Origin: an uncultured Clostridia bacterium
Lineage (GTDB): Bacteria; Bacillota; Clostridia; Oscillospirales; Ruminococcaceae
Direction of reading: 5' to 3'
Length of the DNA: 33,557 nucleotides
Assembly (NCBI GenBank): GCA_947175385.1
Contig: CAMWMN010000012.1
Location: forward strand, 1 to 33,557
Shown here: one piece after another, positions 5,494 to 33,557 of the stretch
Position numbering within the stretch: the stretch's first letter is position 1
How the letters are laid out: each line of letters opens with the position of its first letter
Notes under the pieces: model-generated
What the model saw: the letters and a program-made list of their open reading frames with translations, nothing else
What the model was told of the DNA's origin: nothing
Database searches by the model: none
Made by a program: the position numbers and the translations under genes

Positions 5494-5522
5494 TTGACAA
5501 ACTGAAATCAATGTGGTATAAT
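5494..5522 (+). promoter_or_regulatory. Strong sigma-A promoter for rplJ-rplL
   Basis: TTGACA (5494-5499), 17-bp spacer, TATAAT (5517-5522), with an extended -10 TG one base upstream (TGGTATAAT). It starts the L10 leader. Confidence 0.9.
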
Positions 5523-5529
5523 AACTATG

Positions 5530-5692
5530 CTGTTCTAAAGACAGTAGGCTGTACGGAGTTTTTAATTTCGTGCTATAATGCGGTTTCGCGCCTACCGAGG
5601 AATGGATAGATATGAATTCTATTCTCCCTTTCTGTCTTTGTGCGGAAAGGGTTTTGTTTTGGGCAGCTAATTTAATCAAGGAGGAAAATGTT
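5530..5692 (+). promoter_or_regulatory. L10 ribosomal protein leader RNA with an internal attenuator
   Basis: The 160-nt leader before rplJ has features of the Firmicutes L10 leader. A TGTTCTAAAGACAG hairpin is followed by TAGGC (5545-5549), which pairs across the leader with GCCTA (5590-5594) just before CCGAGGAA. In B. subtilis this type of leader binds the L10-(L12) complex and represses its own operon. Downstream, CCCTTTC (5626-5632) pairs with GAAAGGG (5645-5651) and is followed by TTTTGTTTT, an intrinsic terminator inside the leader. The likely mechanism is premature termination when L10 is in excess. The assignment is from pattern and position, not a covariance search. Confidence 0.85.
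5626..5660 (+). terminator. Attenuator terminator inside the L10 leader
   Basis: A 7-bp perfect stem (CCCTTTC / GAAAGGG) closed by a 12-nt loop and followed by a T-rich tract at 5652-5660, 33 nt before the rplJ start. Confidence 0.8.
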
Positions 5693-10886: not shown

Positions 10887-11002
10887 TGTAAATCACCTCA
10901 AGATTAGGTTGCGCAAATTGCGTGATTTTATCGGACTTGGAAAAAGATACAAATTTCATATAATAAATATATCGAAATATCGGAATTTTTTGTGTTATAT
11001 CA

Positions 11003-11031
11003 TTGACAATATAGCTATTATGTGGTATAAT
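11003..11031 (+). promoter_or_regulatory. sigma-A promoter for ilvBN
   Basis: TTGACA (11003-11008), 17-bp spacer, TATAAT (11026-11031) with an extended -10 (TGGTATAAT). Transcription should start near 11038, 10 nt before the 52-nt leader element. Confidence 0.9.
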
Positions 11032-11047
11032 AAATATAATATTATAA

Positions 11048-11099
11048 CCTTACAGTGAAAACGCTCAACTAAAATGAGCGTTTCATTGGGAACTAAAAA
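11048..11099 (+). repeat. 52-nt leader element, copy 1 (ilvB leader)
   Basis: Begins CCTTACAGTGAAAACG and ends ATTGGGAACTAAAAA. The middle forms a hairpin: AAACGCTCA pairs with TGAGCGTTT around a 7-nt loop. Other copies: 28577-28628, 33451-33502, and a truncated one at 33515-33557. It begins 16 nt after the -10 box and ends immediately before the AGGAG of ilvB, so it fills nearly the whole 5' leader. I do not recognise it as a known riboswitch, and it has no T-box features. Confidence 0.85.
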
Positions 11100-11112
11100 A
11101 AGGAGATTTTTT

Positions 11113-12810
11113 ATGTTATTATCGGGTTCGGATATTATTGTTGAATGCCTTTTGGAACAGGGCGCGGATACCGTTTTCGGGTATCCGGGCGGCGCTGTGC
11201 TGAACGTTTATGACAGCTTGTACAAATACAGCGACAAAATCCGCCACATCATTACCTCGCACGAGCAAGGCGCGTGCCATGCTGCAGACGGATTCGCGCG
11301 CGCAACCGGCAAGACCGGCGTTGTTATCGCGACTTCGGGTCCCGGCGCGACCAACCTCACCACAGGCATCGCGACCGCGTATATGGACTCCATTCCGCTG
11401 GTGGCGATTACGGGAAACGTTTCCTGTAATCTCCTCGGACTGGACAGCTTCCAAGAGGTCGACATCACGGGCGTTACAATGCCGATTACCAAGCATAATT
11501 TCATCGTCAAGGACGTTCGCGACCTCGCGGATACTCTGCGGTCTGCGTTCAATATCGCAAGCAGCGGAAGAAAAGGTCCAGTGCTGGTGGATATTCCCAA
11601 GGACGTAACCGCCGCAAAGTGCGAGTTTCCAAGACGCGAAACCTGCTGTCTTGATGTGAAAAATACGTATACGGGCAGCGACTTGTTAAACAACATTAAT
11701 AATGCTGTTGAGCTGATACAAAGCTCCGAAAGACCGTATATCTACGTGGGCGGCGGTGTTATCTCCTCCAACGCGGAGGAGGAGCTTAAAACTTTCGCGG
11801 AGCTGTGTGACGCACCCGTGTCCTGTTCGCTGATGGGTCAGGGCGCGTACAACCAGACAGACCGCCGCTATATAGGTATGCTCGGTATGCACGGCACTGT
11901 GAAAGCGGTTGAGGCTCTTAATTCCTGCGACTTGCTCATCGGCATAGGAACGCGGTTCTCCGACCGTGTTATAGGCGAACCATCCGTTTTCGCCAAAAAC
12001 GCGAAAATAATCCACATTGACATTGACCCCGCAGAGTTCAACAAGAATGTTAAAACATATATAGCTGTTCCCGGAGATGTGAAAGGGGTGCTTAAATACC
12101 TCTGCGAAAAAATATCTCAAAAGAAGAACGCGTGGACGGACGAACTTATTGCCAAGGACTGCGGCGAACCTGTTCAGCGCGGCACAAACGAGTTCCCCGT
12201 AACACCTCAGGCGGTTATCGAAAAGCTGGACGAGTTGACGGGCGGCAATGCCGTAATCTCCACCGAGGTTGGACAGAATCAGATGTGGGCGGCGCAGTAT
12301 TACCGCTTTAAGAACCCTCGCAGCTTCATCTCCTCGGGCGGATTGGGAACAATGGGCTTTGGTCTGGGCGCGGCAATCGGCGCAAAGATTGGATGTCCCG
12401 ACAAGACGGTGGTAAACATCGCGGGTGACGGCAGCTTTGCAATGAACCTCAACGAGCTGATTACGGCAAGCGCGCACAATATCCCGATTATTGAGATTGT
12501 TATTAACAACAATGTTCTTGGAATGGTGCGTCAATGGCAGCGACTGTTCTATGACAAGCATTTTTCCCAGACTACTTTGGATAACCGCCACATAGACTAT
12601 ATTAAGCTGGGCGAGAGCTTTGGAATCAAAACGTTCGTCATCGAAAAGAACGAGGACATCGAACCGGTTTTGAAACAAGCATTGGAAATCTCGAAATCCG
12701 CGCCGTGTATGATTGAGGTGCGTATCGACCGCGACTTGAACGTTTTACCGATGATTCCCGCGGGTACGCCCGTTGAGAATCCGATTACCGAAATTGACTT
12801 GGAGGCGTAA
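11113..12810 (+). CDS. ilvB: Acetolactate synthase, large (catalytic) subunit
   Basis: 565 aa. It condenses two pyruvates to acetolactate (valine, leucine) or pyruvate and 2-oxobutyrate (isoleucine) with ThDP, FAD and Mg. Catalytic Glu51 lies in ITSHEQGACHAADG; the central FAD-binding domain is followed by the ThDP/Mg motif GDGSFAMNLNEL (GDG at 438-440) through INNNVLGMVRQWQ. A frame-open ATG at 11074 lies inside the 52-nt repeat; the real start is 11113 because AGGAG (11101-11105) sits 7 nt upstream. ilvN follows 2 nt after the stop. Confidence 0.97.
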   Translation: MLLSGSDIIVECLLEQGADTVFGYPGGAVLNVYDSLYKYSDKIRHIITSHEQGACHAADGFARATGKTGVVIATSGPGATNLTTGIATAYMDSIPLVAITGNVSCNLLGLDSFQEVDITGVTMPITKHNFIVKDVRDLADTLRSAFNIASSGRKGPVLVDIPKDVTAAKCEFPRRETCCLDVKNTYTGSDLLNNINNAVELIQSSERPYIYVGGGVISSNAEEELKTFAELCDAPVSCSLMGQGAYNQTDRRYIGMLGMHGTVKAVEALNSCDLLIGIGTRFSDRVIGEPSVFAKNAKIIHIDIDPAEFNKNVKTYIAVPGDVKGVLKYLCEKISQKKNAWTDELIAKDCGEPVQRGTNEFPVTPQAVIEKLDELTGGNAVISTEVGQNQMWAAQYYRFKNPRSFISSGGLGTMGFGLGAAIGAKIGCPDKTVVNIAGDGSFAMNLNELITASAHNIPIIEIVINNNVLGMVRQWQRLFYDKHFSQTTLDNRHIDYIKLGESFGIKTFVIEKNEDIEPVLKQALEISKSAPCMIEVRIDRDLNVLPMIPAGTPVENPITEIDLEA

Positions 12811-28465: not shown

Positions 28466-28557
28466 AATACTAATTGTGTCAAAATCTTTGATTTTGACTG
28501 CCGACGTTAGGCGGCATCAATAAATGGACTTTTGTCCATTGATTGACAATTAGTATT
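28466..28557. repeat. 92-bp element with 12-bp terminal inverted repeats and three internal hairpins
   Basis: Ends AATACTAATTGT (28466-28477) and ACAATTAGTATT (28546-28557) are perfect inverse repeats. Inside are three hairpins in a row: GTCAAAATC/GATTTTGAC (28478-28498), TGCCG/CGGCA (28499-28516) and a TCAAT..ATGGAC / GTCCAT..ATTGA stem (28517-28546). Folded, it gives a closed four-way junction. It could be a small non-autonomous mobile element (MITE-like) or a structured leader RNA of the GH3 operon. I see no clear target-site duplication and no second copy in the window. Confidence 0.75.
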
Positions 28558-28576
28558 ATACCTTTATTGTATCATA

Positions 28577-28628
28577 TTTTTAGTTCCCAATGAAGCGTTC
28601 ATTCCAGTTGAACGTTTTCACTGTAAGG
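28577..28628 (-). repeat. 52-nt leader element, copy 2 (GH3 leader)
   Basis: On the minus strand begins CCTTACAGTGAAAACG and ends ATTGGGAACTAAAAA, the same length as copy 1. The hairpin is CGTTCA/TGAACG where copy 1 has CGCTCA/TGAGCG, a compensatory change. It begins 16 nt after the -10 of the promoter at 28645-28673, the same offset as copy 1. Confidence 0.85.
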
Positions 28629-28644
28629 ATATTGGGTTGCTTTT

Positions 28645-28673
28645 ATTATATCACATTATTGCGGATAATTCAA
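28645..28673 (-). promoter_or_regulatory. sigma-A promoter for the GH3-SBP operon
   Basis: Minus strand TTGAAT (28668-28673), 17-bp spacer, TATAAT (28645-28650) with an upstream TG (TGATATAAT). It gives a leader of about 300 nt. It begins right after the stop codon of the small Cys-rich gene. Confidence 0.8.
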
Positions 28674-31233: not shown

Positions 31234-31262
31234 ATTATACCACTTTTTATTGCCGTTGTCAA
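31234..31262 (-). promoter_or_regulatory. sigma-A promoter for feoAB
   Basis: Minus strand TTGACA (31257-31262), 17-bp spacer, TATAAT (31234-31239) with an extended -10 TG (TGGTATAAT). Confidence 0.9.
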
Positions 31263-31329: not shown

Positions 31330-32805
31330 TCACTCTTTCGGCAATCCCATAGGCTGCGATTGCCAATCTCCCAGATATTCATCGGCTATCGCGGGGACAT
31401 AGTATTCAAAATACCTTATCTCGCCGTTGTCGCCGTACCCTGTTTGCTCGGCTGTTAATCCAACCTCAAAATGATAATACGGCATTATATACTCATGCTC
31501 TCTGCGATACAAATACACAAGTTCAACCGCTCCGATTGGCTCTGTGCCGTTAAAATCGTAATCAACGGTTCCCAGCATCGACAAAAACCAATTATCGTAA
31601 AGCCTATCTGCTGCCTCGTCAACAGAAATAATCGGATAATCGCCTACCTTTTTCATACCCGCAGCGCGAAACTGCATTGAGATAATATCCCCATTAGAAT
31701 TAAATTCAAACGCGACTCTGTTCAGCTGATAGTTGACAAATTCATCCGCGTCGTTACCTCCCTCATAATATTCCACACGGCTACCGGACGAGGACTTATC
31801 GCTAAGCACGGGATTGCCTATTCCAAACATATTGTGGTAGGTTTCCAACATATATCTTCCCGCCTTGTTCATTTCCGTTATTGTGAAATTTGCTGGCTTG
31901 TACTTATCGGGAATTGAAAAGCAATTACCGTTATACCACTTTACATTGACATAAAGTCTGGAATTCAGATTCAAGGAAATGACAATTTCTTTCTCAATAG
32001 ACGCAATTATTTGCCCATTCATCGTCTTAGAAATACGAATCAATCGCCGAGCCTCATCTTCACCGTAGCTCACCCATCGATCCCAGATTGCGCGTTCCGA
32101 TTCCTCCGTAGGAAAATTGTCCTTGACCTCCATCCCCGAAATGTCATATCCAAGCGTTTCGGCAATGCATTTTAGCGTTTGCATCATAAAATCGTGTTCG
32201 GAGTATTCGGAAAAATTATAGTACACGGGCAGCGTTTCAAAATTCATTTCCGCGCTCCATGGGTTTCCAATATCCGTCTCAGGCTTAACAGAGCCGGTCG
32301 GTCCGCCCATTCCCCCAGTGGAATAATACCAAGGCGTCAACTTGGGGAGTTCCCCGTTAGTTTCAGGCAATGTCGGCGCGGTCGGAAAAACAATATCGTT
32401 TCGCGGCTGATTGTTTTCGTTGCCCGGATCATCTATTATGCTATTTGGAGTACTAACGCTTGGATTCGCATTACTGTCCCCTGTGCCGCTTGTTCCCGGC
32501 TGATTGTTTGCGTTGTCCGGATTATCTATTATGCTGTTTGGAGTATTAATACTCGGATTCGCATTACTGTTCGCCGCGCCGCTTATTCCCGCCTGACTGT
32601 TTCCGTTGGTCGGATTGCTTGTGTATGTGTGATTGCCGCTTAGTCGTGTTGTTACACTTACCGCCGTAACCGCGATAACCACGGCGGCAGCCGCCGACAT
32701 CGCTCCGATAAACAATCTGCGGCGCTTGACGGGCTTTTTCTCCGCTTCGATTATATGTTTATCGTCAACATTGGTCATAGCGTTCAAAAAATCATTTCCG
32801 TTCAT
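31330..32805 (-). CDS. Membrane-anchored probable anti-sigma protein with Asn/Pro-rich linker
   Basis: 491 aa. A short cytoplasmic N-terminus (MNGNDFLNAMTNVDDKHIIE, then basic KKPVKRRR) precedes one membrane helix (about 32-54). An extracellular Asn/Pro/Ser-rich linker (about 55-135) contains two 31-residue repeats, followed by a 350-residue extracellular domain I do not recognise. Its start is 17 nt after the sigma-factor stop, with AAAGGAG upstream. This position and topology are those of anti-sigma factors that hold an ECF sigma factor at the membrane and sense an envelope signal; that role is inferred, as no ZAS or RsiW motif is visible. Confidence 0.8.
   Translation of the reverse strand: MNGNDFLNAMTNVDDKHIIEAEKKPVKRRRLFIGAMSAAAAVVIAVTAVSVTTRLSGNHTYTSNPTNGNSQAGISGAANSNANPSINTPNSIIDNPDNANNQPGTSGTGDSNANPSVSTPNSIIDDPGNENNQPRNDIVFPTAPTLPETNGELPKLTPWYYSTGGMGGPTGSVKPETDIGNPWSAEMNFETLPVYYNFSEYSEHDFMMQTLKCIAETLGYDISGMEVKDNFPTEESERAIWDRWVSYGEDEARRLIRISKTMNGQIIASIEKEIVISLNLNSRLYVNVKWYNGNCFSIPDKYKPANFTITEMNKAGRYMLETYHNMFGIGNPVLSDKSSSGSRVEYYEGGNDADEFVNYQLNRVAFEFNSNGDIISMQFRAAGMKKVGDYPIISVDEAADRLYDNWFLSMLGTVDYDFNGTEPIGAVELVYLYRREHEYIMPYYHFEVGLTAEQTGYGDNGEIRYFEYYVPAIADEYLGDWQSQPMGLPKE
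32404..32589 (-). repeat. Tandem 93-bp in-frame repeat in the anti-sigma linker
   Basis: Units 32404-32496 and 32497-32589, near identical, encode two 31-residue blocks (SNANPSINTPNSIID... and SNANPSVSTPNSIID...). It is a recent in-frame duplication lengthening the extracellular linker. Confidence 0.85.
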
Positions 32806-33450: not shown

Positions 33451-33502
33451 TTTTTAGTTCCCAATATCATGTCGACTTTGGTCAAACGTTTTCGCTGTAA
33501 GG
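33451..33502 (-). repeat. 52-nt leader element, copy 3 (sigma-factor leader)
   Basis: On the minus strand begins CCTTACAGCGAAAACG and ends ATTGGGAACTAAAAA, exactly 52 nt. The variable centre holds a short stem (GTTTGAC with GTCGAC, loop CAAA). It ends 67 nt before the sigma-factor ATG. Confidence 0.85.
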
Positions 33503-33514
33503 TTATAGCGTTGT

Positions 33515-33557
33515 TTTTTAGCTCCCAATATTACGTTGACTTTGGTCAAACATTTTC
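33515..33557 (-). repeat. 52-nt leader element, copy 4, cut by the window edge
   Basis: The 43 nt seen end in ATTGGGAGCTAAAAA and start within GAAAATG. It is tandem to copy 3 with a 64-bp period, and its centre (GTTTGACCAAAGTCAAC) is close to that of copy 3. The promoter should lie beyond the window. Confidence 0.8.

Follow-up and report, generated by a model that had tools for sequence, protein, structure and literature searches.

A short non-coding repeat that probably moves as a mobile element and inserts at the −10 box of existing promoters

A 52-nt sequence that recurs in gene leaders of the window (the whole stretch of DNA analysed, 33,557 nt, which is the entire contig C12 of genome G000) belongs to a dispersed repeat. 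With a probability of about 0.85, we consider the repeat to be a non-coding mobile DNA element of ~70 nt, MITE-like in size and spread, which inserts with a fixed orientation into existing promoters of the sigma-A type, at the 3' edge of their −10 box. Judging from its position in the sequence, the inserted element probably becomes the mRNA start of unrelated genes. The steps that could be observed directly are the repeat family, its linkage to promoters, its orientation, the empty sites and the duplication of the box. The genome of a sister species (G003) was used for all comparisons of orthologous sites.

Copies and distribution of the element

Three copies of exactly 52 nt were present in the window, at 11048-11099 (+, copy 1), 28577-28628 (-, copy 2) and 33451-33502 (-, copy 3), with the ends described in the initial annotation. 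A fourth copy at 33515-33557 (-) is truncated by the contig end, which falls inside it. The real unit is longer than this 52-nt core (~70 nt). It begins immediately after a TATAAT box, which in most boxed copies stands 16 nt before CCTTACAG, and extends a few nt beyond the AAAAA run. A coding repeat was rejected, as most copies have stops that interrupt the frame PYSENV..YWELK.

The gapped 52-nt pattern with no mismatches gave three matches in the whole genome, all in the window, and none for the backward-pattern control. The 5' core alone (≤2 mismatches) gave 39 genome matches vs 4 control matches. A sequence-only model was built from a 67-column ungapped alignment of 29 copies. With this model, 74 matches were found in G000 at E ≤1 and 64 at 0.001. 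A census of the fetched loci of both genomes comprised at least 119 copies in 92 clusters: 57 copies in 44 clusters in G000, and at least 62 copies in 48 clusters in G003, a floor because these were counted from the fetched part of a genome with 74 model matches. An additional diverged copy lies between two boxes at C64:1610 (G000), outside the 119.

Genus-wide, 15 of 43 genomes had matches at 0.001, G000 and G003 included. Weaker relatives were found in 13 of the other 41 genomes, with 1 to 13 matches each. About 22 of these were read individually; they were diverged, and a GC-rich hairpin often followed the element. The right-end-plus-box pattern was found in G000 and G003 only (2 of 43). 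By eye, a sister variant with a CATTGGTACTGAAAA end was seen between two TATAAT boxes at L092 and L105 (G035) and at L089 and L102 (G038). The G035 and G038 variants are one base shorter at the right end and were missed by this pattern.

In a wider contig collection, outside which our own genome possibly lies, the strict pattern gave five stretches, all from one MAG (JAAVIC01). The family-wide search matched one of 297 genomes, our own; its sensitivity was low, with only 19 own-genome copies recovered, and it is no proof of absence outside the genus. Three exact-pattern scans of viral contigs gave no matches.

Linkage to promoters

The initial annotation had placed the copies in 5' leaders, in the transcribed direction, and many copies do lie in leaders close to a promoter and point the same way as it. 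In 58 of the 119 copies an exact TATAAT stands 9-22 nt ahead of CCTTACAG, and in one copy a reverse box does; on the right side, there were 27 exact boxes and three reverse ones. The distance from the exact TATAAT to CCTTACAG was 16 nt in 42 of the 58 copies and 15-18 nt in 56. A −35 element (≤2 mismatches, spacing 15-19) accompanied the box in 40 of these 56 copies vs 11 of 56 in a control 20 nt upstream. Boxes on both sides (≤1 mismatch) were found in 39 copies.

No exact TATAAT was present in the left zone of 61 of the 119 copies, and in 44 there was none even with one mismatch. The unboxed copies include diverged copies, inner tandem copies, copies between operon genes and a variant lying antisense beside tRNA genes. 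About half of the copies are hence tied to recognisable promoters, in one direction. Placement and constant orientation follow if insertion occurs at a directional target, the −10 box. As exact TTGACA-N16-18-TATAAT sequences number 243 in the genome (two for the backward pattern), many possible targets are still free.

The antisense variant has the centre AATTCCCAATGA..TCATTGGGAATT or a related hairpin and is found just past tRNA gene ends (L012 ~1487-1567; L088, L091, L096 and L101). Read from the tRNA, it resembles an intrinsic terminator preceded by a GC hairpin.

Sites in the window

The ilvB gene has a promoter of the exact form TTGACA-N17-TATAAT at 11003-11031 (+), which pre-dates the element. 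The inserted element follows at 11032-11099 (+), with copy 1 as its core. The Shine-Dalgarno sequence AAGGAG at 11100-11105 (+) directly abuts the A-run, as the initial annotation had it, and the ATG is at 11113. In G003, the orthologous ilvB (protein 95% identical) shares the promoter and the Shine-Dalgarno sequence, has a short leader and is empty at this site. All 29 genus ilvB leaders checked have a TTGAC-type −35 and a TATAAT-like box (≤1 mismatch). The element is present in one of the 29, that of G000, and 28 other genomes are without it.

At the GH3 operon promoter, the left −10 box TATAAT (context TGATATAAT) lies at 28645-28650 (-), the inserted element of 72 nt, with copy 2 as its core, at 28573-28644 (-), and the right copy of the box, ATACAAT, at 28566-28572 (-). 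The right copy matches the empty site of G003 (GTGATACAAT). From box to ATG, the GH3 leader measures 229 nt here vs 47 nt in G003. Between the element and the GH3 gene, positions 28469-28554 (-) contain an inverted repeat (ACTAATTGTC ... GACACAATTAGT), and this segment looks like a second, different short inserted element.

Copies 3 and 4 are repeat matches in the leader of the ECF sigma gene and form a tandem, with copy 3 (33451-33502, -) as the downstream member and copy 4 (33515-33557, -) cut by the contig end. The orthologous G003 leader has three copies, one of them weak. The FeoA/FeoB promoter, again an exact TTGACA-N17-TATAAT (31234-31262, -), is an empty site in the window. Its G003 counterpart (gene assigned by Pfam in G003) is filled and flanked by TATAAT and CATAAT. 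The GH3 and ilvB sites are therefore filled here and empty there, and the FeoAB site shows the opposite.

Empty and filled orthologous sites

Host-gene stretches were looked up for 28 sites, picked from clusters with no filled orthologue, and 24 orthologues were found. Together with three sites from synteny, 27 sites were compared between G000 and G003, the alignments being read by eye. In 23 of the 27, the site was empty in one species with the −10 box already present there; this proportion is not a rate, as the clusters were chosen for a missing filled partner. The count comes from two genomes. In the whole census, the G003 partner is filled for ~18 to 20 of the 44 clusters in G000. Three sites were remnants or deletion derivatives (C6_84643 and C25_88299 in G003, C40_2430 in G000), meaning that deletions also happen. 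One site (C31_2284) was uninformative, with no box on either side. Presence in one species and absence in the other at 23 of the 27 orthologous sites is what a mobile element leaves. An ancestral leader is not supported, as many sites are empty in the sister species.

In 22 of the 23 empty/filled pairs, the element sits at a pre-existing box. The exception is C4_30580, where it begins 40 nt downstream of the box. At L011 1351-1554 (G000:C4), there are three tandem copies of the subtype GCATACAG..TTGGCGATAAAAA with a 68-nt period, the first of them 40 nt downstream of the box.

The box was found on both sides in 11 of the 22 pairs, with three imperfect right boxes (TACAAT, CATAAT and AATAAT). 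A clear case is an hpt-like gene: the empty site reads AGTGTGGTATAAT|ATAAATTG, and the filled site reads AGTGTGGTATAAT|element|ATGGTATAAT|ATAAATTG. The right box was lost in the other 11 pairs. Nine of these run into the Shine-Dalgarno sequence or the start codon, C27_91090 ends a few nt before them and C10_10239 ends in a GC hairpin.

Duplication of the box and later changes

The target sequence is repeated on both sides of the element. The comparison covered 31 copies with the right box at the expected place, a few of which probably have linkers as right boxes but were kept in the count. The base before TATAAT was the same on the left and right in 23 of the 31 copies and disagreed in eight; the shuffled mean was 12.8, and none of 20,000 shuffles reached 23. 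The three positions before that base showed no excess agreement. On the right side they read ATG in most copies, which looks like the element's own end. The duplication comprises at least NTATAAT (7 bp) and perhaps up to 9 bp (TGNTATAAT); a length of 8 or 9 bp is possible since TG is common in target boxes.

At the tRNA-Gly promoter, different subtypes of the element are present in G000 and G003 at exactly the same point. Two independent insertions at one target would give this picture. Several tandem units have a box in common, which is expected if the right box serves as a new target. At G003:C25:122006-122240, three tandem copies with an 84-nt period have no adjoining TATAAT box. The middle was lost in some copies, such as C78:5603 (apparently between CAACGT repeats) and C74:1023.

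Proposed mechanism and alternatives

The element would insert right after an existing −10 box, which the least altered copies carry again beyond the element. The left box keeps its spacing to the −35, leaving the promoter sequence intact. Transcription would then start within the first nt of the element, and the host mRNA would begin with it. The old leader and the right box may later be lost by deletion, with the terminal A-run and A-rich DNA ahead of the Shine-Dalgarno sequence or ATG as possible endpoints; such deletions would explain why many copies lie flush with one or the other. The right box could also take a further insertion, which would produce tandem arrays. A transposase or recombinase acting in trans is the presumed mover.

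On the enzyme and the target, a more far-reaching reading is more tentative and falls a little short of an even chance. It holds that the element uses the extended −10 box itself as its integration site and is moved by a dedicated directional enzyme, for which promoter-bound sigma factor or RNA polymerase may serve as a guide. The box would be duplicated so that the promoter survives, and the element would travel through unrelated genes of the genus as a transplantable 5' leader.

The ends of the element changed less than its centre. Orthologous copies differed at 51 of 576 end positions vs 101 of 458 centre positions (Fisher p 3e-9; 20 pairs), though several of the 20 pairs look like independent insertions of different subtypes, which inflate the centre differences. 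The constancy of the ends is only a hint of constraint, and such constraint would reflect recognition by the enzyme, use as a leader or both. It is possible, if doubtful, that the element was domesticated after insertion as a 5' UTR module for mRNA stabilisation or translation enhancement, which is compatible with the insertion model. Besides the less variable ends, this is suggested by the ATG directly after the A-run in several copies, where the GGGA of the element could serve as a Shine-Dalgarno sequence. Gene conversion or recency would, however, keep the ends alike equally well, and the apparently independent insertions raise the centre differences here too.

The mobilising enzyme was not found in the few searches made (PF01797 and PF06782). 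The Y1 transposase PF01797 gave no match in G000 (97% complete), while the control matched in five of 14 genomes; an element of the IS200/IS605 or REP/RAYT type was rejected on this result. The UPF0236 transposase PF06782, which we take to be linked to ISLre2, was found in none of five genomes, and the controls were silent too. The partial model matches read in G000, and one in G003, were remnants, diverged copies or chance. No transposase was seen bracketed by partial matches (read by eye with ORFs unannotated, for part of the partial matches in G003). No clear terminal inverted repeat was seen by eye; the inverted repeat CCCAATAT/ATATTGGG (8 nt) is subterminal and occurs in one subtype.

Fixed orientation, the lack of clear terminal inverted repeats, box-element tandems and the shared 7 bp would also suit a circular cassette moved by a tyrosine-type recombinase, with NTATAAT as the crossover and no duplication by a transposase. 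We regard this as unlikely: agreement of the variable base in 23 of 31 copies is the direct expectation from target duplication (a homology requirement would give it as well), and the recombinase is so far a hypothetical one. Spread with no dedicated enzyme, by template switching or recombination between TATAAT boxes, is improbable. The boxes do offer short homology, and tandem and internally deleted copies indicate frequent local rearrangement, but a homology of 7-12 bp is short for a unit with 92 clusters in two genomes, and the junction on the left is sharp.

Comparison with known systems

Bacterial MITEs and short dispersed repeats such as BOX, RUP, ERIC and Correia are short, non-coding, multicopy and lineage-bound, with insertion polymorphism. 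The present element is like them in being short and non-coding, with many copies in one lineage and insertion polymorphism. Unlike them, it is tied to the −10 box in a fixed orientation, and its ends are not clear inverted repeats. Integron gene cassettes insert directionally and form tandem units with a shared junction. Directional insertion and tandem arrays with a common junction are found here as well, but no attC-type site was seen by eye, and the target is a promoter box. Ty3 is a eukaryotic retrotransposon that inserts at a fixed position at the start site. The yeast element is named as a comparison for promoter targeting in PMC3942029. The likeness lies in targeting promoters at a fixed position; otherwise the two are unrelated.

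Bacterial transposons that target promoters are already known. According to Guerillot et al. (PMC3942029), TnGBS, ISLre2 and some ISKra4-group elements have prokaryotic Mutator-like transposases, and the transposons target sigma-A promoters, inserting 15-17 bp upstream of the −35. The authors propose that orientation is set by unequal recognition of the two inverted repeats. These elements resemble ours in the choice of promoters and in orientation, but they lie upstream of the −35, code for a transposase and have inverted repeats. The element described here is found on the 3' side of the −10 box, which it repeats; it is ~70 nt long and non-coding, and has no clear inverted repeats. Its position does not fit a TnGBS/ISLre2-type element, as it is located downstream of the −10 box and not 15-17 bp upstream of the −35. 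The literature search, judged mostly from titles and listings, gave no description of an element at the −10 box.

If true, landing at the −10 box with the promoter sequence left whole would be a new way of sparing the host, and the 5' UTRs of unrelated genes would have been rewritten within the divergence of two sister species. The filled and empty sites are natural before/after pairs for measuring the effect of a new leader.

RNA structure and downstream genes

The initial annotation had proposed a hairpin in every copy. Copies 1 and 2 folded better than shuffled sequences (z −6.1 and −3.4), but copies 3 and 4 did not (z −0.60 and −0.48). RNAalifold predicted no pairs on 29 copies. In the same copies, no covariation measure was above shuffles for either the full stem of copy 1 or the 5' linker hairpin. 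In the second-subtype hairpin, the paired percentage was reached by 35 of 500 shuffles and the covariation score by 97 of 500. The middle differs between subtypes, without the compensated changes that mark a conserved RNA fold. Covariation was hence not clearly above shuffles and a conserved hairpin is not supported; a structured cis-regulatory RNA with covarying pairs was rejected on these 29 copies.

The element matches no Rfam family; the initial annotation, too, could not place it in a known one. An Rfam search of the window gave RF00557 alone, at 5517-5666 (+, 52.8 bits), away from the element; this is an ordinary known leader, that of ribosomal protein L10. Around copy 1 (10900-11150, E ≤10), there were seven matches, all far below the gathering scores. 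A known Rfam family was therefore rejected, with no match above the curated threshold at the element.

The three window genes were correctly named: Pfam gave an acetolactate-synthase-type TPP enzyme, a GH3 domain and regions 2 and 4 of sigma-70. The shared regulon, in contrast, was not supported. Pfam was run on 29 selected proteins from the 92 clusters (five unmatched), and the downstream genes were unrelated, which argues against a regulon. They include the TPP enzyme, GH3, sigma factor, UvrA, LysR, dUTPase, LytB, QueA-type, thioredoxin, RNase H, FeoA/FeoB and others. Two tRNA genes (Gly and Ala) also follow the element.

A cis-acting RNA leader common to a regulon, whether a riboswitch or a protein-binding RNA, is very improbable: leader placement, fixed orientation, near-invariant ends, a centre less conserved than the ends in orthologous pairs and a start codon no more than 16 nt away in 34 of 119 copies (mechanical scan) speak for it, but covariation is not clearly above shuffles, RNAalifold gave no pair, Rfam gave no match, the targets are unrelated and include two tRNA genes, and presence differs between the sister species at many promoters. 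As for the cis-acting leader proposed initially, an effect may exist, given that the ends differ less than the centre, while conserved RNA structure and a regulon are not supported. The case is a warning against taking every repeated, oriented leader near a promoter for a riboregulator.

Downstream of the ECF sigma gene, the ORF at 31330-32805 contains two tandem 93-nt repeats (window 32400-32585) that are 85% alike.
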